Positions 680 to 10,538 of a DNA stretch of 10,538 nt are shown piece after piece; positions within the stretch are counted from its first letter, which is position 1; every line of letters begins with the position of its first letter. Position numbers and translations under genes: made by a program. The stretch spans positions 1-10,538 of the forward strand of contig JAUVUL010000016.1 of the NCBI GenBank assembly GCA_030600975.1. Reading direction: 5' to 3'. This DNA is from Candidatus Aegiribacteria sp. (GTDB taxonomy: Bacteria; Fermentibacterota; Fermentibacteria; Fermentibacterales; JCC-6). The notes beneath the pieces were generated by a model that did not search any database, was not told the DNA's origin, and saw nothing but the letters and a program-made list of their open reading frames with translations.

Positions 680-1360
680 ATGTATACTGAACCGTTCGTA
701 ACGCTCGATAATATCGATGATAAACTCTCGGAATGGCTGGTTCGGGTAGAGAAGTACACCCATCCTAAGCCATACCTTATACTGAAACCGGAAAAGTGTG
801 CCCTGGTGGTTGTGGATATGCTGCATTACTTTGCCGATCCCGGTGGAAGGGTATATCTGCCTTCGACAGGAGTGATCATTCCTCGAATAGCCATGCTTCT
901 GAAACACTGGAGAAGTATCGGTGGAACCGTTGTTTACACCCGACACTGCCACAATAGTTCTGAAGATCTTGGAATGCTTGGCAGATTCTTCAGTGATTTT
1001 ATCCGGTGCGGGAAGCAGGAATCCGAGATCATCCCCGAACTCTCCCCTCTCCCCGGTGAGAAGGTTTTCCAGAAAAATACGTATGATGCATTTCACAATA
1101 CGGATCTTGATGAATTTCTGAGAAGCAGATATGTGGAGCAGGTTCTTATTACCGGAGTGCTGACGCAGATGTGCTGTGAGACGACGGCAAGGTCAGCGTT
1201 CGTAAGGGGGTACGAAGTGTACATTCCTGCGGACGCTGTGACGACAAGCTCGGAGGAACTTCACATCGGAAGCCTTCAGAATCTCGCCAGCGGTTTCGCG
1301 GTTATCACCGGCACATCTTCTATCTGCAGCACGGATTGTAAAAAACCTTGCATGACGTAA
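680..1360 (+). CDS. Isochorismatase-like cysteine hydrolase
   Basis: 226 residues of the isochorismatase/nicotinamidase superfamily, which hydrolyses amides, ureides or vinyl ethers through an Asp-Lys-Cys triad. The probable triad is visible: D46 in VVVDML, K132 in the FQKNTYDAF segment, and C165 in GVLTQMCCETTA, the usual nucleophile region; C166 follows directly. The parallel strands of the Rossmann-like core are clear (ALVVVDM, TVVYTRH, QVLITGV). The substrate cannot be assigned: the DxQ/DxF metal-site pattern of nicotinamidase is not evident. The C-terminal tail is odd, with cysteines 216, 220 and 224 spaced CxxxCxxxC. No Shine-Dalgarno sequence is seen before the ATG, which lies 12 nt after the previous stop, so the start is only moderately certain. 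The last 13 nt overlap the flavoprotein gene. The cytoplasm is the likely location, since there is no signal sequence. Confidence 0.85.
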   Translation: MYTEPFVTLDNIDDKLSEWLVRVEKYTHPKPYLILKPEKCALVVVDMLHYFADPGGRVYLPSTGVIIPRIAMLLKHWRSIGGTVVYTRHCHNSSEDLGMLGRFFSDFIRCGKQESEIIPELSPLPGEKVFQKNTYDAFHNTDLDEFLRSRYVEQVLITGVLTQMCCETTARSAFVRGYEVYIPADAVTTSSEELHIGSLQNLASGFAVITGTSSICSTDCKKPCMT

Positions 1361-2235
1361 CTGTTATCGGAGCGGGTCCGGCAGGCTGCGCGGCAGCCGT
1401 GCAGTGCAGAAGGCTGGGGCTTAATGTTATTCTGGTTGATACAAGCGGAAAAGCGGGAGGGCTCGTCCGCGAGGCGAGACTCATCGAGAACTATCCCGGA
1501 CTCGAAAAACCTCTTGCGGGACCGGTATTTGCAAACAGGCTTATTTCCTTCGTTTCAGCACACGATCTGCAGATACGATGTTTTCATGCTGATTCGATAG
1601 TTCTGAGCGAAGGTGTCTTTGAGATATCCGGAACCGGTGAAACCATCAGATCGCGCTTGGTGATAGTCACTGTGGGAACGGTTCCAAAGGATTTCAGTAT
1701 TAAGATCAACGGAGATGTAATAATACACAGATCCGTTCTTGAGCTGAAACAAAAACCTCCGAAAAGAACGGTCATCGTAGGGGGCGGTGAGGCTGCCCTT
1801 GACTACGCGCTGAACCTTTCAGATGCGGGCTCATCTGTCAGCGTGCTTGTCAGAAGCTCCAGACTGAAAGCCACAGGTGATCTCAGGAAGGAGATCAAAA
1901 GACGCAGCGCAGTTAAAATCCTTTATAATACCGTTCCCGTAACGGCATCCAGTTCTGAAGGAATTATCCATCTTGAGGTTGAATCATCCGGAAGGAGAAT
2001 ATCCCTGGAAACGGATGCTGTGCTTGCAGCCGTGGGCAGGGAACCCCGACTGCCTCGGATTACGAATGACTTCGTTCATGACAGGGGAAATGTTAGAACA
2101 TCGATTCAAGGATTGTACATTTCGGGAGATGCTTCACTTGGCAGTCTGGGACAGGCTGCCATAGCATCAGGTCAGGGTATTCAGGCAGCACTGTACGCAT
2201 TAGAATTTCTGAAGGCAGGGAAAGGCGAATCGTGA
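1348..2235 (+). CDS. Thioredoxin-reductase-like FAD/NAD(P) oxidoreductase lacking the CxxC pair
   Basis: 295 residues with the two-dinucleotide-fold layout of low-molecular-weight thioredoxin reductases. The FAD-binding VIGAGPAG lies at 6-13, the family motif ENYPGL at 47-52, the second nucleotide-binding motif VGGGEAALD at 144-152, and the second FAD motif YISGDAS at 257-263 followed by GQAAIASGQG at 268-277. The HRRxxxR motif that grips NADPH is changed to VRSxxxK (168-174), so NADH versus NADPH is open. The redox-active CxxC that normally lies about 15-20 residues before the second GGG is absent: residues 122-140 contain no cysteine, and the only cysteines are 14, 20 and 78. The protein therefore cannot reduce thioredoxin in the usual way and probably passes electrons to another acceptor. 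The start is TTG, the only usable start after an in-frame TAA at 1339. It overlaps the hydrolase by 13 nt and the next gene by 4 nt. Confidence 0.85.
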   Translation: MHDVTVIGAGPAGCAAAVQCRRLGLNVILVDTSGKAGGLVREARLIENYPGLEKPLAGPVFANRLISFVSAHDLQIRCFHADSIVLSEGVFEISGTGETIRSRLVIVTVGTVPKDFSIKINGDVIIHRSVLELKQKPPKRTVIVGGGEAALDYALNLSDAGSSVSVLVRSSRLKATGDLRKEIKRRSAVKILYNTVPVTASSSEGIIHLEVESSGRRISLETDAVLAAVGREPRLPRITNDFVHDRGNVRTSIQGLYISGDASLGSLGQAAIASGQGIQAALYALEFLKAGKGES

Positions 2236-3143
2236 AAATCGTAGGACAGCGCGGAGAATCAGATCTCGCGACCGTTTACATAGGCGAGCTTAAAGACGGT
2301 GAGCTTATAGAGTTCGTGGAATCGGTCCAGCCCCCGATCCCTCAGAGCGAGAAATGGGTACTTATCGTATCCACACTTAAAGGCTGCCCCGTTAACTGTC
2401 CCATATGCGATGCCGGGACCTTCTACGCTGGAAAACTCTCATTCGGGGAAATAATAGGCCAGATCGATTACATGGTACGAAAAAGATACAGTGAAGGTAA
2501 AGTACCTGTTTCAAAGTTCAAGATTCAATTCGCCAGAATGGGTGACCCTGCTTTCAATCCCGCCGTTCTGGATGTTCTGCAGGAACTGCCTTTCGTTTAC
2601 GATGCCCCGGGACTCTTACCAAGTATATCAACCATTGCACCCCGGGGTTGCGATGATTTCTGGGAAAATCTGACTGATATAAAGAACAGGCTTTACACTG
2701 GCGGCAGATTCCAGATGCAGTTCTCCATCCATACCTCTTCGGAAAATGCAAGGAAAGAACTGGTGCCCTGCAGTACATTGAGCTTCGCTGAAATGAGCGA
2801 ATGGGGCGAGGAATTCTTCAGTTCCGGTGACAGGAAGATTTCTCTGAATTTCGCAGCGGTCAGAGGTTATCCGGTGAATCCGGCAGTAATCGCAGACCTC
2901 TTCTCACCCGATTATTTCATGGTTAAGCTGACACCTGTTAACCCGACACATTCTTCCCTGAATCTTGGGCTGGAAGGCATCATAGATCCTGATTATCCAG
3001 AATCAGCAGAAGAACTTGTGGCCGATTTCAGGGATTGGGGATTTGATACTATCCTGAGTATAGGCGAGACCAGGGAAAATCTCATAGGTTCAAACTGCGG
3101 AATGTACGTTGGGCAACAATATGTCTCGTCCTGGAAACCCTGA
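2232..3143 (+). CDS. RlmN/Cfr-like (class A) radical SAM protein, short form
   Basis: 303 residues. C52, C56 and C59 form the CxxxCxxC motif that binds the 4Fe-4S cluster. Around them the protein matches the RlmN/Cfr pattern: GELKDGELIEFV (18-29) resembles the RlmN beta-hairpin before the core, EIIGQ (73-77) is kept, ARMGDPAFN (101-109) matches GMGEPLxN, FSIHTSSENARKEL (164-177) matches the SLHAxxxxxRxxL segment, LTPVNP (233-238) matches IPYNP, and SNCGMYVG (287-294) matches the AACGQLAG that carries the methylated cysteine. C289 is therefore the equivalent of RlmN C355. Two things differ from RlmN/Cfr. The N-terminal RNA-binding region is missing, with the first cluster Cys at 52 against about 112-125. 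The second catalytic cysteine, seven residues before the cluster motif, is I45. A methylation-like reaction on an unknown substrate is inferred. The GTG start has AAAGG at 2221-2225, 6 nt upstream, and overlaps the flavoprotein stop as GTGA. Confidence 0.85.
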   Translation: MKIVGQRGESDLATVYIGELKDGELIEFVESVQPPIPQSEKWVLIVSTLKGCPVNCPICDAGTFYAGKLSFGEIIGQIDYMVRKRYSEGKVPVSKFKIQFARMGDPAFNPAVLDVLQELPFVYDAPGLLPSISTIAPRGCDDFWENLTDIKNRLYTGGRFQMQFSIHTSSENARKELVPCSTLSFAEMSEWGEEFFSSGDRKISLNFAAVRGYPVNPAVIADLFSPDYFMVKLTPVNPTHSSLNLGLEGIIDPDYPESAEELVADFRDWGFDTILSIGETRENLIGSNCGMYVGQQYVSSWKP

Positions 3144-3576
3144 CAGCGAATACCCTGGTTGCCGCCGAGCCAGGATTCATGGCGAAGGGATCGATGGGAA
3201 CGAAACTGAATTCATATGACTTGCCAAGAACATTGGAATGAAGGCACCATACGAATCTCCCGGAATTGATGAAAGGACCCCAGCTGGTTACTGATATTCC
3301 AGCGTTCCAGAGTTCGTTGAGCTCGCTGTAACTTGGCATTTCCCAATCACCACCCAGACCATATATCCATTCCCTGGCGTCTTCCCAGTCAATATCCCAG
3401 TCGGTTCCCACTTTCCACTGCATTCCGGTTATGAGGTCTGTGATCACATCGTCGTCTGACATCATGAATCTGTTACTGATGCTCATTCCCACAGTTGAAC
3501 GGTTGCATCCGGGAATAAGCAGCGAAAGAAGAAGTAGAAACATCATGACAATAACCTGAGTTGCGTGTTCCTTCAT
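3082..3576 (-). CDS. DUF1566-like lipoprotein, copy 2 of a tandem pair
   Basis: 164 residues from the preferred start. A short hydrophobic signal ends in the lipobox LLIPGC, so a lipoprotein is likely, with the lipidated Cys at residue 24. The mature domain has the pattern of DUF1566 (Lcl C-terminal domain): DVITDLITGMQWKVG, then a WEDAREW segment, then DWEMPSYSELNELW (usually WRLPTxxEL), ending in RVFAVRV. Such domains are common in surface lipoproteins of diderms and have no established activity. An ATG at 3582 is also possible, giving 166 residues and an ATGA overlap with copy 1. The ATG at 3576 is preferred because GGAAGG lies 6 nt before it, while it directly abuts the other, and because the lipobox Cys is then residue 24 as in copy 1. 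The last 20 or so codons are antisense to the radical SAM gene, and that tail does not resemble the tail of copy 1. Confidence 0.8.
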   Translation of the reverse strand: MKEHATQVIVMMFLLLLSLLIPGCNRSTVGMSISNRFMMSDDDVITDLITGMQWKVGTDWDIDWEDAREWIYGLGGDWEMPSYSELNELWNAGISVTSWGPFINSGRFVWCLHSNVLGKSYEFSFVPIDPFAMNPGSAATRVFAVRVSRTRHIVAQRTFRSLNL

Positions 3577-3578
3577 TC

Positions 3579-4076
3579 TCATCCTTCCACAAGCGTGTGA
3601 TACAGGGCTATTATCCAGTAACCGGGAGGTGAAAGCACCGCAAAAACCCGCTGTCCGGATGGCACCACGTCATGCACGTCCAGATAGACATCGTTTGGAA
3701 TGAAACAGAACGGGTAGGACATATTCCTTCTAGCGTAATCCACGGACCAGACAATCCAGCCGGTATTGTCAAAGGGACCCCAGCTCATAGTAGTAATACC
3801 TGCATCGAAAAGCTCCTCAAGCTCACTATGTGTGGGCATTCTCCAGTTGTCGCCAAGATTCTCTATCCATATACCGGCATCGTACCAGTCGAAATCCTTG
3901 TCCGGACCGACTTTCCATTGAAGACCTGTTACTATATCCGTGATAACATCGTCAGAAGACACCCGGAAGCGATCGTAAATACTTATTCTCGAGGTTAAAG
4001 GCCTGCAGCCGGTCAGGATAAACGGAAACAGTGACAGGATTATTACTGATGTTCTCAGAAATCCATTGACTCTCAT
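3579..4076 (-). CDS. DUF1566-like lipoprotein, copy 1 of a tandem pair
   Basis: 165 residues from the chosen start. The signal sequence ends in the lipobox FILTGC with Cys 24. The mature part has DVITDIVTGLQWKVG, WYDAGIW, NWRMPTHSELEEL and finally RVFAV, which is the DUF1566 layout. It is clearly a paralogue of the downstream gene: the SDDVITD..TG.QWKVG block, the MP..SEL.EL block, the SWGPF block and the RVFAV block are shared. An ATG at 4145 in the same frame would add 23 polar residues ahead of the signal peptide, which would spoil it. The ATG at 4076 has AAGGA 9 nt upstream and puts the hydrophobic stretch at the N-terminus. The stop lies 2 nt before the preferred start of copy 2, so the pair is co-transcribed. 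A candidate promoter lies in the 116-nt gap upstream. Role unknown; probably anchored in the inner leaflet of the outer membrane. Confidence 0.8.
   Translation of the reverse strand: MRVNGFLRTSVIILSLFPFILTGCRPLTSRISIYDRFRVSSDDVITDIVTGLQWKVGPDKDFDWYDAGIWIENLGDNWRMPTHSELEELFDAGITTMSWGPFDNTGWIVWSVDYARRNMSYPFCFIPNDVYLDVHDVVPSGQRVFAVLSPPGYWIIALYHTLVEG
3583..3588 (-). promoter_or_regulatory. Shine-Dalgarno that decides the start at 3576
   Basis: GGAAGG on the minus strand lies 6 nt before the ATG at 3576 and touches the ATG at 3582. The spacing favours 3576, and the resulting lipobox Cys at residue 24 equals that of the upstream paralogue. Confidence 0.6.
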
Positions 4077-4085
4077 TTCATCCAT

Positions 4086-4090
4086 TCCTT
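4086..4090 (-). promoter_or_regulatory. Shine-Dalgarno that decides the start at 4076
   Basis: AAGGA on the minus strand lies 9 nt before the ATG at 4076 but directly abuts the in-frame ATG at 4085. The second position is too close to work, so 4076 is favoured, in agreement with the position of the signal peptide. Confidence 0.65.
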
Positions 4091-4118
4091 GATAACTGCC
4101 GTAACTACTACTGTGGTT

Positions 4119-4147
4119 AGTATACTTCTGCGGTAACTCCATCATAA
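4119..4147 (-). promoter_or_regulatory. Candidate sigma-70-type promoter upstream of the lipoprotein pair
   Basis: On the minus strand TATACT (4124 to 4119) matches the -10 consensus at five of six bases. TTATGA lies 17 nt upstream as a weak -35, matching three of six. The site is about 43 nt before the start at 4076, inside the 116-nt gap after the ABC genes. No strong terminator was seen in that gap, so this could be an internal promoter rather than the start of a separate operon. Confidence 0.3.
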
Positions 4148-4192: not shown

Positions 4193-6280
4193 TCAAGAAC
4201 TATCGTTTGCTGCGTACTGAAGAAGGTAGAGATTGTAATAGATGCCTCTTCTGGCAAGCAGTTCCTGATGATTACCCCTTTCGAGTAATCTTCCATCGTC
4301 AATAACCAGTATCTGATCAGCCTTCTGTATAGTGCTGAGTCTGTGGGCAACCACGATACTGGTACGATTCTTCATAAGCACTTCTATGGCGTTCTGTATC
4401 AGCTGCTCGGTTGCAGGATCAACATTGCTCGTGGCTTCGTCAAGTACGAGAATCCTCGGATCGTGAGCCAGGGCTCTGGCGAAACAGATAAGCTGTTTCT
4501 GCCCTGTTGACAGGGTGGCTCCCCTTTCAGCCATGACAGTATCAAAACCCTCCGGCAGTTTCTCGATGAAGGGTGTGACCTGAACCATGTCCGCAGCTTC
4601 GCGTACCTGTTCTCTTGTAAGGTCACGTCCCAGACGTATGTTGTCCTCTATGCTCCTGCTGAAAATGAAGGCGTCCTGCAGGACTATTGAAATGCTCTCC
4701 CTCAGTGTTTGTACAGGCAGGTCCCTCAGATCGTTACCATCCAGAAGTATCCCACCGGAATCAACATCGTAGAATCTGCACAGAAGGCTGATTATGGAAG
4801 TCTTCCCTGCTCCTGTGGGACCCACCAGCGCGACACTCTTTCCAGATTCAACCTTGAAACTGACATTACGGAGAACATTCTTGTCCGTTTCGTAAGAGAA
4901 TGTCACGTTATCAAATTCAATAGCGCCTGTCAGGACTGTATTCCTTGCAGAGGGTTTATCAGCAATTTCAGGTTCGGTATCGAGTATTGCAAAAATTCTC
5001 TCCCCCGCAGCCATGGCACTCTGCATTATGTTGTATTTCTGGCTTATGTCCGCCAGTGGCTGGAACATCTGTCTTACATAGCTTATGAAGGCAACCAGTG
5101 CACCTATAGTAAGAGCACCGGTGAGGACGTTGCCTCCACCGTAAACCAGTACGAGAGCGATCCCGACGGATGCTGTTATCTCGATCAGAGGTCTGAAGAT
5201 ACCGAAGATTACCATCTGCTTCATGTTAGCCCTGAAATAATTTCTGTTGGTCTCCTGGTATTCATCCCTCCGCCTTTTCTCCTGGCGGAAAACCTGAACG
5301 ATCTTTATTCCGCTGAGATCTTCCGATAGTCTTGAATTAAGTCCGGCGAGGAATTTCCTTACTGTCCTGTAAGCACCCCTTGCCTTAACGCGAAAAATCA
5401 CAGTAATGATTATGAAAACCGGAGCGACAGCAAGGGAAACCAGGGCGAGTCTCCAATTCAGCAGAAAGAGGATTGTGGCTGTACCGACTATCAGAATAAC
5501 ATCCTTGACGAGGTTCACAAGGACTGCTGTGAACATTTCGTTGAGGGCTTCTATGTCGTTGGTCACCCTGGTAACAAGCCTTCCGATCGGGTTCTGAGAA
5601 TAGAACTTGAGTGACAGGTGCTGTATATGCCTGAACAGCTCCGTTCTGACATCATACATGGATCTCTGTCCTGCTATCACCAGGGTCATGACATGACCGT
5701 ATCCGGCCGTAAGGCTTATTAGTATCAGTATACCCAGTAACCATGCGAGCCTGCTTATACCAGCGATATCATCACCTCTGACATCTACTATCACCGAAAG
5801 AGGTACACTGGAGAGCTCTCTCTCGGGTACGAGCCAGTATCCGTCCATGATTTCGCCTGTTTGACCGTTGTACCTGTCCCCCGGGAAGAGGTAATACGTC
5901 TCCCTTGAGAGGTTGCCGGCATCTTCCATTTCAATCAGTTGCGAGGGGTCCATCCTGTCGAGCGCTGCCTTCCGTACCAGCAGAAGTGTATCTGTTAAAA
6001 CGGGAATAAAGTCTGTTGTATCCTGTGACGATTCAATAAGTTCTGTACACACTGCTACAGGGGCCGAATAGATCTGATAAAGCTTCGCTAGGTAATTATC
6101 AATTCCTACTTTTGTCACGTAGGGAATGAGCAATTCGATTCCGGCAGTTACGATCATGAAGAACATGGCCAGGAAGATGAGGCGTCGATGGGGTCTTACA
6201 TAATGGAGCAGTCTCCTGATAAGGGCGCGATCGTACATCTTCCCTCCAGCTGCATCTTCTACAAAAGGATTGCCATGCAT
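4193..6280 (-). CDS. Heterodimeric ABC exporter, large subunit with extracellular insertion
   Basis: 695 residues: an exporter-type membrane domain fused to an ATPase domain. The first membrane helix is about 34-58 and the second about 176-200. Between them lies an insertion of roughly 110 residues (about 65-172), where ordinary half-transporters have a short loop; it should sit outside the cytoplasmic membrane. BmrD of Bacillus BmrCD is a known case of such an extracellular domain. ATPase motifs: Walker A GPTGAGKT at 487-494, Q-loop Q535, signature LSTGQ at 590-594 (not the consensus LSGGQ), Walker B LVLDE with the catalytic E615, and H-loop H646. With the 599-residue partner this gives one consensus and one degenerate ATP site. 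The substrate is unknown; relatives export drugs or lipids. The start ATG shares one base with the partner's stop (TGATG), which implies translational coupling and equal output. Confidence 0.92.
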   Translation of the reverse strand: MHGNPFVEDAAGGKMYDRALIRRLLHYVRPHRRLIFLAMFFMIVTAGIELLIPYVTKVGIDNYLAKLYQIYSAPVAVCTELIESSQDTTDFIPVLTDTLLLVRKAALDRMDPSQLIEMEDAGNLSRETYYLFPGDRYNGQTGEIMDGYWLVPERELSSVPLSVIVDVRGDDIAGISRLAWLLGILILISLTAGYGHVMTLVIAGQRSMYDVRTELFRHIQHLSLKFYSQNPIGRLVTRVTNDIEALNEMFTAVLVNLVKDVILIVGTATILFLLNWRLALVSLAVAPVFIIITVIFRVKARGAYRTVRKFLAGLNSRLSEDLSGIKIVQVFRQEKRRRDEYQETNRNYFRANMKQMVIFGIFRPLIEITASVGIALVLVYGGGNVLTGALTIGALVAFISYVRQMFQPLADISQKYNIMQSAMAAGERIFAILDTEPEIADKPSARNTVLTGAIEFDNVTFSYETDKNVLRNVSFKVESGKSVALVGPTGAGKTSIISLLCRFYDVDSGGILLDGNDLRDLPVQTLRESISIVLQDAFIFSRSIEDNIRLGRDLTREQVREAADMVQVTPFIEKLPEGFDTVMAERGATLSTGQKQLICFARALAHDPRILVLDEATSNVDPATEQLIQNAIEVLMKNRTSIVVAHRLSTIQKADQILVIDDGRLLERGNHQELLARRGIYYNLYLLQYAANDSS

Positions 6281-8079
6281 CAGCTCTCACCCCCCTCACT
6301 ATCAGGGGTTTCTTCCTTCTTTGCTTCTTCCTCCAGCTGCTGCATTCTGAAAAGCTCAGCATAGAATCCGTCATGCTCCAGGAGTTCAAGATGGGTTCCA
6401 TGCTCAACTATCCTGCCATCATCCATTACGATGATGTTGTCAGCATTCTGTATGGTGCTAATCCTGTGGGCGATAAGAATGCTTGTCAGATCGCTTATGT
6501 CCTTCTTCAGCCGCTCTAGAATGGAGGCTTCAGTTTCCGTATCGACACTGGAGAGAGCGTCATCCAGAACAAGTATCCTGGGATTGACAGCAAGTGCCCG
6601 GGCAATCGCTACCCTCTGCTTCTGACCCCCCGAGAGGGTAACTCCTCTCTCCCCTACCGTCGTATCGTACCCGTCGGTAAAATCCTGAATCTCATTGGCG
6701 ATATCAACAACGGAAGCAAGTTCTTTTATCATTTCGCGGGATATGTCGCTATTACCGAAGGCAATGTTGTCAGCAATGGACATGGCGAACAGGAATGTTT
6801 CCTGGGGAACGTAACCGAACATTCCTCGTATGTTTGCCAGTTTCATTTCATGAACATCAACCTCCCCAAGAAAAACCGTACCTTCGGGGGGGTCGTACAG
6901 CCTCATCAGAAGCTCAACAAGAGTTGTTTTCCCCGATCCGGTGCGTCCGACAATGCCCAGGGTTCCTCCCACAGACAGCTGGAAGGATACATCCTTGAGA
7001 ACTTCTATCTCGGTACCCGGATAGGTGAAGGAAAGATTCTTCACCAATATGGCAGGGTCGGGCTCAATATCCTTTGAACCATCTGTGATGTCAGGAAAGG
7101 TTGTGAAAATCTTCTGGAGCCTGTCCATACTTGCAGCACCCCTCTGAAGCAGATTGACCACCCATCCTATTGCTATCATCGGCCATATCAGCATCATCAG
7201 GTAACTGGAAAAGGCGACGAATTCACCCAGCGATATAACTCCCTTTATAACCATTGAGCCACCTGCACCAAGCAATATTGCCATGCTGGCCATGGCAAGG
7301 GCACCGATCATCGGCTGGAACATTCCCCATATCCGGGCGAGTTTGACATTCTCCAGGACGCAGTCCTCGGCCTTCTCAGAGAAGTATCTGTCCTCCGATT
7401 CCTCATCTCCATAAGCCTTAATGACCCTCACCCCTGAAAGGGATTCCTGGGCTTTCTCTGTAAGGGTGGAGAAAGCTTTCTGAACAGATTCAAATCTCTT
7501 ATGAATCAGCGCACCGAACTTCAGCATCATTAAAGCAATAAGAGGAAGCGGTATCATGGTAAGAAGGGTCAGTTTCCAGTTCATGATAACCATAATGGTG
7601 ATGCTGGACACTGAAAGAAAAACTGCATCGAACGTTGCTATTGTAGCAATACCGGTGGCCATTCGTACGGCACTTATGTCGTTGGTTGCATGGGCCATGA
7701 TATCGCCCACCTTGGTCTGGTCGTAATACTGTGGCGACAGTGTCTGAAGATGGTCGTAAAGCTCCTGTCTGATATTTCTGTCGATCCGGTGGCTTGAACC
7801 GATGACAAGATATCTCCAGAAGAACCGGAAGATACCCATTACCAGATAAAGCCCGAGTATGAGAAGTCCCAGCTTAAGCAGAAGAGAGCGGGTTGCCATG
7901 CCACTGACCAGGCTGTCGATAACCCTCTGGAAAACCGTCGGGACAATAAGCTGCATGGCGTCCACTATTATGAGTGTGCAAATCCCCAGGCCTATTGCTT
8001 TCTTATGTTTGAGTATCCTCTTGAGCAGAAGCTTCAGGCTGGATTTACTGATACTTTTTCTCTGAGATACTGACTTCAA
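6280..8079 (-). CDS. Heterodimeric ABC exporter, small subunit with degenerate Walker B
   Basis: 599 residues, a half-transporter of normal length: membrane helices between about 28 and 310, then the ATPase domain. Walker A GRTGSGKT is at 378-385, Q-loop Q426, a perfect LSGGQ signature at 482-486, Walker B LVLDD with Asp at 507 where the catalytic Glu should be, and H-loop H538. The Asp marks the degenerate site typical of heterodimeric exporters such as TM287/288, LmrCD and BmrCD. It is paired with the altered LSTGQ of the large subunit, so the deviations fall in the same ATP site. The C-terminal tail after about 580 is highly acidic. The start is TTG at 8079, supported by GAAGGG at 8086-8091 with a 6-nt spacer; no ATG lies near. 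It is separated by 67 nt from the upstream lipoprotein gene and shares one base with the downstream large subunit. Confidence 0.92.
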   Translation of the reverse strand: MKSVSQRKSISKSSLKLLLKRILKHKKAIGLGICTLIIVDAMQLIVPTVFQRVIDSLVSGMATRSLLLKLGLLILGLYLVMGIFRFFWRYLVIGSSHRIDRNIRQELYDHLQTLSPQYYDQTKVGDIMAHATNDISAVRMATGIATIATFDAVFLSVSSITIMVIMNWKLTLLTMIPLPLIALMMLKFGALIHKRFESVQKAFSTLTEKAQESLSGVRVIKAYGDEESEDRYFSEKAEDCVLENVKLARIWGMFQPMIGALAMASMAILLGAGGSMVIKGVISLGEFVAFSSYLMMLIWPMIAIGWVVNLLQRGAASMDRLQKIFTTFPDITDGSKDIEPDPAILVKNLSFTYPGTEIEVLKDVSFQLSVGGTLGIVGRTGSGKTTLVELLMRLYDPPEGTVFLGEVDVHEMKLANIRGMFGYVPQETFLFAMSIADNIAFGNSDISREMIKELASVVDIANEIQDFTDGYDTTVGERGVTLSGGQKQRVAIARALAVNPRILVLDDALSSVDTETEASILERLKKDISDLTSILIAHRISTIQNADNIIVMDDGRIVEHGTHLELLEHDGFYAELFRMQQLEEEAKKEETPDSEGGES

Positions 8080-8482: not shown

Positions 8483-8488
8483 CTCCCT
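8483..8488 (-). promoter_or_regulatory. Shine-Dalgarno that decides the start at 8476
   Basis: AGGGAG on the minus strand lies 6 nt before the ATG at 8476 and overlaps the TAG stop of the M16 gene. It favours the shorter lipoprotein over the frame's earlier ATG at 8527. Confidence 0.65.
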
Positions 8489-9791
8489 ATTTAAGTGGCC
8501 AGGGCTGAAGCTGCTCAAAAGAAACAACCGTTGTGTCAGCTATAATTCCCCAGCCTCCGTATACTATCCATCTGTCCAGTACTGCACTGAGATCTCCCGA
8601 TGACAGCTCCGATATATTATCGAACACCGTGTAGGCATTTCTCCAGGTTCCGGTGCAGATTTCAAAATTCCCCATCATCCAGCATTGATTGTCCTTGCTG
8701 GCTGCTCTGAGGTTCTCAAGTGTCCTACTCTTCTCTATCGTTCCCCTGAAAATATCTTCATCAATGGGGTTCTCGATCACGTCTGCAAGTACTTCTGCCA
8801 TAAGCGAGCAGGCAAGCACGGGTTGCGGAGAGCTGACGTACATGTAACCCCAGTTTTCCCTATATCTGGTTGCACCGGAATGCGTTGCATATGTCAAAGC
8901 ATAGTCGGTTCTAAGAACCTGCCAGAGGAGATCGTAAACAACACTCATAGCGACACGGAAAGGCAGAAGATCCTCATGGCCCTGGGGCGGAGCGTTGAAT
9001 TTAGCAACGGCATAGGCTGTGGGCACCTCTCTATGCTGAACAACAATCGTATCACTGTTGAGCGTAAAGGGTTCAACCTGCGGGTATTCCTGTCCGCCTT
9101 CCGGGATATCTCCGAAGGCCTGCTCCAATATACTCCGCAGATCTTCAGGTTCTGTAGGTCCGGCATGCGTAATAAGCAGATTCCCTGAGCGTATTCTTTC
9201 GTTAAGCATATTCGAGACATCTTCCCGGGTGAAGCCGGATACTGTCTCAACCGTACCATCGGGAAGCCGCCTGTATGTGTGTCCGGGCATGAATGCATCG
9301 TTGGCCACAAACCATATCCAGCTGTCGGGATCGTTGTACTTCTCCTGGAGGTCCTGAATTGTACTTGTGCGTACCTGTTCAAATGCCTGCTCCTCAAGCT
9401 CAGGGCTCAGGAGAGAGTTTCCGAATGCAGAAAGGAGGATCGGCAGATCTTCGCATATGCATCTAAGGTGATACCTGCTGTAATCGTAGTTAAAACTGCT
9501 GGTCCATTCAGCATGCGTTCTGTCCATCAGTTCGCGCCATTGCGGTCCGGGATAATCCTCTGAACCCATCATGGCACACTCAAGGGAAAACCGTTCAAGA
9601 CCCTGAGTCTCTTCCGTCAGAGCACTGGAACCTCCGATTATGAAAAGGGAAACGCCCTCTATTTCGTTATTGTCAATGGTTCTGGTGATGACATGGATGC
9701 CGTTGGATAGAGTGAACTCCTCCACATCCTCGGGAACCGATGCATACACCGAACCAAGCAGAACAGCAACTACAAGACAGATGATCTTCAT
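8487..9791 (-). CDS. M16 (insulinase-type) protein, predicted catalytically inactive
   Basis: 434 residues, a normal length for a bacterial M16 half. Residues 1-17 form a signal peptide ending VYA, so it is periplasmic rather than lipidated. The N-terminal M16 domain is visible: FTLSNGIHVITR (26-37), then GGSSALTEETQGLERFSLE. Aligned to the family pattern GLAHFLEH, the zinc motif HxxEH has become R67-F-S-L-E71, losing both histidines and the catalytic Glu. The C-terminal domain keeps the family's R...Y pair (R294 and Y301 in the LRTDYALTY segment), which in M16 pairs contacts the substrate in the partner's active site. It is therefore probably the non-catalytic partner of the gene directly upstream. 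Its ATG shares one base with that gene's TAA (TAATG), and GAGGAG lies 8 nt upstream. Confidence 0.85.
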   Translation of the reverse strand: MKIICLVVAVLLGSVYASVPEDVEEFTLSNGIHVITRTIDNNEIEGVSLFIIGGSSALTEETQGLERFSLECAMMGSEDYPGPQWRELMDRTHAEWTSSFNYDYSRYHLRCICEDLPILLSAFGNSLLSPELEEQAFEQVRTSTIQDLQEKYNDPDSWIWFVANDAFMPGHTYRRLPDGTVETVSGFTREDVSNMLNERIRSGNLLITHAGPTEPEDLRSILEQAFGDIPEGGQEYPQVEPFTLNSDTIVVQHREVPTAYAVAKFNAPPQGHEDLLPFRVAMSVVYDLLWQVLRTDYALTYATHSGATRYRENWGYMYVSSPQPVLACSLMAEVLADVIENPIDEDIFRGTIEKSRTLENLRAASKDNQCWMMGNFEICTGTWRNAYTVFDNISELSSGDLSAVLDRWIVYGGWGIIADTTVVSFEQLQPWPLK

Positions 9792-10538
9792 TATCGGTTC
9801 TCCTCTCCGTTAAGAGGCATCAGTACAAAGGCGGCACGGGGTTTATTCACGATCCAGGTTTCAAGGAATTCACTTATGTCTTCCGTTTCTACAACTTCAA
9901 GACTGTCCTGGTAGGTAACGTAATAATCCAGGCTGCCCGCAACTACCCACCAGAATGGCATGGATTCCACGGCTACATCTCTGGAAGTCTCCTCCGCCAG
10001 AATCCTGTGACGGTAGAGTTCCTCTTTCGCGAGTGCGATACCCTCTTCATCGTAATAATCGGGAGACTGAAGCTGCTGGATTTCCTCGAGAAGAAGATCA
10101 AGTGCCTCTTCAGCTCTGTCAGGCGGCACCATTCCGGCAAAGGTTATCGAAGGTGAAAAGCGCTGCGTATAGTAAGAACCGTACACATTGATGAAGGGTC
10201 CATTGGTAACCAGGTCGGTGTAGAATTCTCTGCTCATGAGGGAAAGGTAAGAACCCCATACGTCTGCCGGATAACTGTCTCCGGGATCTGTAGATATCGA
10301 GGGCCCTTCGTATACCACTGAAACGTATCCTGCACCTGAGGGACTGTCCACATAGACTGTAGTGTCCCTCTCAATTCTGATAAGCCTCGGGAGACTGTCG
10401 TAATTGCTCCTGCCTCCATACTCCCAGCCGGAGAACTGCTCTTCTGCGAGTCTGAAAGCTTCTTCATAATCGACATCGCCGGCAATTATCAAAGCTGAAT
10501 TATCGGGAGTGTAATAAAGCTCCTGAAAAGCATGCATA
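9791..10538 (-). CDS. M16 (insulinase-type) peptidase, C-terminal part, cut by window edge
   Basis: About 248 codons are in the window; the reading frame runs to the last bases, and the 5' part with any signal peptide and zinc motif lies outside. The visible part begins at the end of the first M16 domain: FQELYYTPDNSALIIAGDVD fits the family pattern of a Y.P.N segment followed by a strand and GD. It continues through the C-terminal M16 domain (VSVVYEGP, ADVWGSYLSLMS, PSITFAGMVP) with the long helices after it. The ATG at 10537 falls in mid-domain and is not a credible start. Because the next gene is an inactive M16 protein, this one is expected to be the catalytic half, but its HxxEH cannot be checked here. 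It ends in TAA overlapping the next ATG. Confidence 0.8.
   Translation of the reverse strand, partial: MHAFQELYYTPDNSALIIAGDVDYEEAFRLAEEQFSGWEYGGRSNYDSLPRLIRIERDTTVYVDSPSGAGYVSVVYEGPSISTDPGDSYPADVWGSYLSLMSREFYTDLVTNGPFINVYGSYYTQRFSPSITFAGMVPPDRAEEALDLLLEEIQQLQSPDYYDEEGIALAKEELYRHRILAEETSRDVAVESMPFWWVVAGSLDYYVTYQDSLEVVETEDISEFLETWIVNKPRAAFVLMPLNGEENR

Follow-up and report, generated by a model that had tools for sequence, protein, structure and literature searches.

An RlmN-like radical SAM family without the RNA-binding domain and the second catalytic cysteine, encoded in a conserved three-gene module

Which parts of the methyl-cysteine mechanism are essential to an enzyme that descends from those using it? 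The question is raised by a gene in a 10,538-nucleotide (nt) stretch of Candidatus Aegiribacteria sp. DNA (phylum Fermentibacterota; contig JAUVUL010000016.1, assembly GCA_030600975.1), here called the window, which encodes an RlmN-like radical S-adenosylmethionine (SAM) protein of 303 residues (2232..3143, forward strand). RlmN is the C2-methylase of A2503 in 23S ribosomal RNA and of A37 in transfer RNA, and Cfr is the C8-methylase of A2503 in 23S ribosomal RNA. In the relevant passages of two papers (PMC9692996, PMC13001441), the methyl-cysteine mechanism is described only for these two RNA enzymes: SAM methylates a C-terminal cysteine, 5'-deoxyadenosyl makes a methylene radical, the radical adds to adenine, a second cysteine acts as the base that removes the C2 or C8 proton, and the C–S bond then breaks. 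The same passages attribute reduction of the thiyl to an unidentified source or, as is believed, to the cluster, and state that replacement of the second cysteine in either enzyme traps the adduct. The window protein has an RlmN fold without the RNA domain, a cluster motif, an invariant carrier cysteine, no base cysteine, a set of pocket residues unlike that of RlmN, and constant gene neighbours, and as a conserved family with the carrier but not the base it asks directly what the chemistry needs.

A family with one of the two RlmN cysteines

Translation of the frame bears out the motifs on which the original prediction was built, namely the cluster motif CxxxCxxC (C52, C56 and C59; 2385..2408, forward strand), MGDP (residues 103–106), SIHT (165–168), PVNP (235–238) and C289 (codon tgc, 3096..3098, forward strand). 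The gene begins with a GTG that overlaps the stop of the preceding gene by 4 nt. The cluster motif and a partial TIM barrel place the protein in the radical SAM superfamily. Pfam gives no family at an E-value of 0.001, PF04055 included; the best NCBIfam match is TIGR00048 (RlmN), at 27.2 bits against a cut-off of 290, the Cfr models NF000424 and TIGR04432 reach 20.9 and 18.3 bits against cut-offs of 530 and 550, and the sulfur inserters LipS2 and BioB give no NCBIfam match at an E-value of 0.1.

In alignments to solved RlmN and Cfr chains, I45 (codon atc, 2364..2366, forward strand) pairs without a gap with C118 of RlmN, and C289 pairs with C355/C338, as had been predicted from the reading frame. 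Position 45 is Ile in 28, Leu in eight, Val in three and Met in three of 42 aligned family members, and position 289 is Cys in all 41 that cover it. Eighteen further members, fetched later and kept outside the alignment, have Ile (16), Met (one) or Ser (one) at position 45 and Cys at position 289 throughout. When the whole set is measured against the two cysteines of class A enzymes, the C355 site is thus Cys in 59/59 members and the C118 site is never Cys in 60/60, which also answers the two objections that another cysteine might occupy the C118 site or that C289 might not be kept in homologues. Outside the cluster motif, C289 is the sole invariant cysteine of the 42-member alignment (positions 140 and 180 vary), which sets the family apart from BioB and LipS2.

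By comparison, Cys stands seven residues before the cluster motif, at the C118 site, in all 29 RlmN-type proteins that were read, taken from other genomes and from the window's own. Thirty RlmN-type loci of other genomes were gathered with a Cfr model search; of 31 loci examined in all, two were dropped by a filter that demanded the ACG motif and the cluster motif, and not the C118 position. The presence of ACG in 29/29 therefore reflects selection, whereas the C118 count is independent of the filter. The Cfr model search of 117 genomes gave no match above the Cfr cut-off, so the RlmN-type set holds no true Cfr.

A maximum-likelihood tree of the 42 family members and the 29 RlmN-type proteins splits the two sets by a branch with 100/100 support, in a tree whose bootstrap had not fully settled, in which one RlmN-type row is long and which includes no protein above the Cfr cut-off. 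The window protein lies outside RlmN, contrary to the possibility that it clusters within ordinary RlmN. With a profile of 18 Fermentibacterota sequences, the top match in every member genome lies between 165 and 530 bits; in the 43 other matched genomes, whose matches were read in part and taken as RlmN-type, no score exceeds 63 bits. A separate RlmN-type gene (a 424-residue frame) is present elsewhere in the window's genome, which is among the 25 of 33 Fermentibacterota module genomes with a second, weak RlmN-type match.

The family occurs in 57 of 385 genomes (33/42 in Fermentibacterota and 24/343 outside), counted with one genome per species and not as a census. Two further phyla hold a member in 7/14 and 44/103 genomes, the latter being the phylum of genome G364. 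Since the searches of these two phyla list only four of the 24 outside genomes (G161 and G298; G364 and G233), the other 20 belong to at least one more phylum, and the family therefore spans at least four. The 24 rows from outside Fermentibacterota share 40–60% identity with the window protein, and 25 columns are invariant across the 42 proteins; the TGA in the match of G175 lies at its start, its body being free of stops. Six close relatives (83–88% identity) are recorded as Candidatus Aegiribacteria or Candidatus Fermentibacteria. The last residues of the window protein, after about position 295, are unlike the longer tails of close relatives. Two tandem lipoprotein-like genes (3082–4145, reverse strand) follow, with weak Lcl_C similarity and both matching one same stretch in relatives, and the first extends into the radical SAM gene at its 3' end.

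The predicted lack of the N-terminal region that helps to hold RNA is confirmed by the structural model, whose first residue pairs with residue 80 of E. coli RlmN, residue 63 of a Sphaerobacter protein and residue 66 of Cfr. The nearest solved relatives are RNA methylases, and with RlmN the model shares the radical SAM barrel and its beta extension; spore photoproduct lyase is a weaker match (E 2e-4), far below RlmN. In a joint alignment with the RlmN-type proteins (column thresholds of 95% and 90%), 16 columns are conserved and identical in both sets, including E27, S47, Q77, S165, N237 and C289–G290. By chain count E27, S47 and N237 correspond to E105, S120 and N312 of E. coli RlmN, so these positions are kept together with the C355–Gly pair. 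By contrast, 14 columns are conserved and different (V15, G67, Q99, A101, R102, A136, P137, N206, F207, K232, T234, G278, E282 and N288), and position 45 comes in addition, being Cys in every RlmN-type row and hydrophobic in the family. The same differences set the family apart from Cfr.

The part consulted of a preprint on the cryo-electron microscopy of Cfr lists Ser151, Ser153, Asn208, Thr210 and Asn288 among the RNA contacts (PMC13001441). In our profile alignment these pair with K97, Q99, Q161, Q163 and K232, respectively, which are themselves conserved (42/42, 42/42, 41/42, 42/42 and 41/41 in the family, and 18/18 in the later set). The family is also more acidic: the median calculated isoelectric point (pI) is 6.0 with a net charge of −3 in 41 members, as compared with 9.1 and +9 in the cores of 29 RlmN proteins, cut to roughly the matching region. 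The re-lined pocket and the acidic core, as calculated from sequence, speak for an anionic or amide-bearing small substrate over RNA, short of proof.

The conserved gene neighbourhood

The radical SAM gene is the third of three overlapping genes, preceded by an isochorismatase-fold hydrolase and a thioredoxin reductase (TrxR)-like flavoprotein; this grouping goes unmentioned in the original prediction. The surroundings were read in 26 of the 32 other Fermentibacterota member genomes, and the trio stands together in all 26, with the radical SAM gene split into two frames at one locus (L051). Outside the phylum, the flavoprotein gene adjoins the radical SAM gene in 23 of 24 genomes, and a contig end truncates the locus in the remaining one. 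The hydrolase gene is adjacent in 18 of 22 testable genomes, upstream in 17; in G356 it has the opposite orientation and adjoins the 3' part of a gene divided between two contigs. In the four outside genomes where the hydrolase is not adjacent, a homologue scoring 207 bits or more lies elsewhere. The two extra phyla have 47 other member genomes, and at 18 loci chosen from these the flavoprotein adjoins in 18/18 and the hydrolase in 15/18, which brings the sums over all loci to 67/67 and 59/66 testable, respectively. In G484 the flavoprotein and radical SAM genes have a transposase-like frame of the opposite strand between them (L173:6519-7763); in G486 the two lie close together.

At an E-value of 1e-45, 23 of the 24 outside genomes with the module hold the hydrolase, as compared with 14 of 319 others, an enrichment biased upward because some of these genes had gone into the profile. 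Obligate co-occurrence was rejected: the hydrolase is present without the radical SAM protein in G041 and in G331, a congener of G044, and G003, G008, G024 and G068 hold the radical SAM protein with no hydrolase match at the same E-value. Beyond the trio, no protein cluster recurs in more than four of 32 loci, and nine proteins scanned beside detached amidohydrolase genes have no common theme. A PADLOC scan left two of the three proteins without a match and gave the flavoprotein one 18-bit match to a desaturase-like model; a defence role was rejected on this result. One scan of viral contigs found no relative, and a plasmid scan returned eight records at 23–28% identity, five annotated as rlmN and three unannotated at the place. 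Literature searches among open-licence PMC papers, judged by listings and passages, brought up no account of the trio.

The flavoprotein (1348..2235, forward strand; Pfam Pyr_redox_2), whose gene overlaps both neighbours, resembles bacterial thioredoxin reductase and TrxR-type ferredoxin-NADP reductase in its flavin adenine dinucleotide (FAD) and NAD(P) domains, its invariant glycines and its closing GD...Q motif. Its model, with a predicted local distance difference test (pLDDT) score of 91.8, matches the TrxR fold, and it scores 133 bits against TIGR01292 (cut-off 343). It differs from thioredoxin reductase in that the redox CxxC is absent from the TrxR site in 28/28 rows, the window's included, four rows having a CxxC elsewhere; it should therefore pass electrons without a dithiol. 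LipT is a precedent for a dedicated flavoprotein in such a setting: it is an FAD- and NAD(P)H-dependent oxidoreductase encoded with the radical SAM proteins LipS1 and LipS2, and electron delivery is likewise only proposed in the passages concerned (PMC10332631). The radical SAM partners of LipT are, in the part consulted of another paper, sulfur inserters with auxiliary clusters (PMC9585515).

The hydrolase (680..1360, forward strand; Pfam PF00857, 1.2e-43) is a cysteine amidohydrolase of the isochorismatase fold, the group to which its relatives in the PDB also belong. It carries a CCETTAR motif and the Asp46–Lys132–Cys165 triad, which is invariant in 22 rows and whose residues have the roles generally known for this fold. 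It shares the fold family and the triad with RutB, biuret hydrolase, N-carbamoylsarcosine amidase and EntB; it differs in falling below the cut-off of all six NCBIfam families that it matches.

Possible mechanism and substrate

Loss of the RNA domain and of the second cysteine, together with travel beside two metabolic enzymes in several phyla, suggests that a small molecule is now the target of this radical chemistry. The explanation that we tentatively prefer, giving it a little under an even chance, is a radical SAM enzyme of RlmN/Cfr descent that lost RNA binding, took on a small anionic or amide-bearing metabolite as its substrate, forms the core of a three-enzyme module and works by the methyl-Cys289 mechanism. 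The flavoprotein, reduced by NAD(P)H, would give electrons to the [4Fe-4S] cluster and/or reduce a Cys289 thiyl radical; SAM would methylate C289 as in RlmN, and a methylene radical made by 5'-deoxyadenosyl would attack an sp2 carbon of the metabolite. The loss of the second cysteine, described as the proton-removing base, suggests that the substrate or a residue deals with proton removal in another way, and the proton may leave via the substrate itself or via another invariant residue, for which E27, K41, K97 and K232 are candidates. The amidohydrolase would act on the same compound, afterwards or beforehand, by cutting an amide or a ureido bond. The two constant neighbours make this a concrete three-enzyme pathway to reconstitute. 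A wider claim, which we hold with considerable doubt, is that the family may be the first non-RNA branch of class A type methyl-cysteine chemistry, with methyl-Cys289, a methylene radical acting on an sp2 carbon of a metabolite, release without a cysteine base, electrons from the flavoprotein and an amidohydrolase finishing a short pathway, from Fermentibacterota to other phyla.

The original prediction had proposed that the enzyme keeps methyl-cysteine chemistry and resolves the intermediate differently, or acts on a small or otherwise different substrate. The different, small substrate gains indirect support from the missing RNA domain, the acidic core, the re-lined pocket and the gene linkage with an amidohydrolase and with a flavoprotein of the NAD(P)H type. 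The rest is conditional: the invariance of C289 is compatible with methyl-cysteine chemistry, which is possible, the alternative role being a hydrogen-atom or thiyl site, and a different resolution of the intermediate follows only where that chemistry is kept. Several observations weigh against the preferred explanation. The pocket mapping depends on alignments at about 16–21% identity and on contacts from one preprint, and a further Cfr contact, Lys250, falls on K202, a residue retained in most members. The pI ranges overlap (4.7–9.2 in the family and 5.4–10.0 in the RlmN cores), and model confidence in the C289 loop is moderate (pLDDT blocks of 73 and 54). The amidohydrolase is non-adjacent in 7/66 testable genomes, and a hydrolase of this group is found without the radical SAM protein inside the phylum, in G041, as well as outside it, in 14 of 319 genomes.

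As the whole family lacks the second cysteine, there must be another base, a substrate that needs none, or a different use of Cys289, such as hydrogen donation. In the last case 5'-deoxyadenosyl would take a hydrogen atom from a small substrate, C289 would quench the product radical with no methyl transferred, and the cluster or the flavoprotein would reduce the resulting thiyl. The conserved cysteine of spore photoproduct lyase is such a hydrogen-atom donor and thiyl relay. One invariant non-cluster cysteine suits a relay better than a two-cysteine methyl transfer, spore photoproduct lyase is among the weaker fold matches, and the flavoprotein could serve thiyl reduction. However, that match is far below the RlmN match, C289 occupies the RlmN position with its following Gly, and the shared columns E27, S165 and N237 are kept. 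We consider a relay unlikely, yet second in weight: the largest share falls to methyl-cysteine chemistry on a small substrate, and the relay comes next. Improbable, to our minds, is a remaining RNA methylase that recognizes another RNA or nucleoside without the N-terminal domain, perhaps with a partner. It would accord with RNA methylases as the nearest solved relatives and with the 16 columns common to RlmN-type proteins, but the core is acidic, most mapped RNA-contact positions are replaced, the RNA domain is absent and the neighbours are metabolic.

A role in biotin or lipoyl cofactor assembly is brought to mind by the genes that adjoin the module in some lineages: it follows BioC-like, BioD-like and BioA genes at three Fermentibacterota loci (one scanned, two by similarity) and LipS2 in one lineage of the G364 phylum. 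However, BioB is above its cut-off in all three of these genomes, where the biotin-linked copies lie, and 10 of 33 Fermentibacterota module genomes have no BioA or BioB above cut-off; an alternative biotin synthase was rejected on these grounds. LipS2 (E ≤ 1e-40) occurs in 3/57 module genomes and 14/328 others of the 385-genome set, and in the 103-genome phylum at least six module genomes are without it and many LipS2 genomes are without the module, a genome-wide distribution on which lipoyl synthesis was rejected as a general role. As a general role, either assembly appears largely refuted by these gene distributions, and we rate it as very improbable. Least credible of all is a degenerate, inactive RlmN paralogue: it would account for the lost base cysteine, but not for 25 invariant columns in 42 proteins, 40–60% identity in the 24 rows outside the phylum, invariant cluster cysteines and C289, and a kept gene order.

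Lineage-bound contexts and other genes of the window

The three biotin-linked loci (L043, L044 and L047) belong to one Fermentibacterota genus, g3, where the module lies directly downstream of the biotin genes; domains were scanned in L043, BioA was identified by its domain in L044, and the rest were assigned by similarity. In two of these genomes the contig with the module also carries BioB. At L175, L176, L178 and L179 the gene immediately upstream of the module is LipS2, which is above its cut-off in the two proteins scanned, with matches at the corresponding places in the other two genomes. At three more loci of the G364 phylum (L105, L182 and L189) further genes lie downstream of the module. 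Those at L105 read as a YgeY-type hydrolase, a carbamoyltransferase and two amidohydrolases, which together resemble a purine-degradation cluster; L182 and L189 were likened to it by gene order and first residues only. Elsewhere in the window, two genes of the ATP-binding cassette (ABC) exporter type lie side by side (4193–8079, reverse strand). Such genes stand beside the module in loci of the window's own genus and in G025, and not in the g3 loci. They are followed by two tandem M16-peptidase-like genes (8487–10537, reverse strand), the second of which is cut by the window end.
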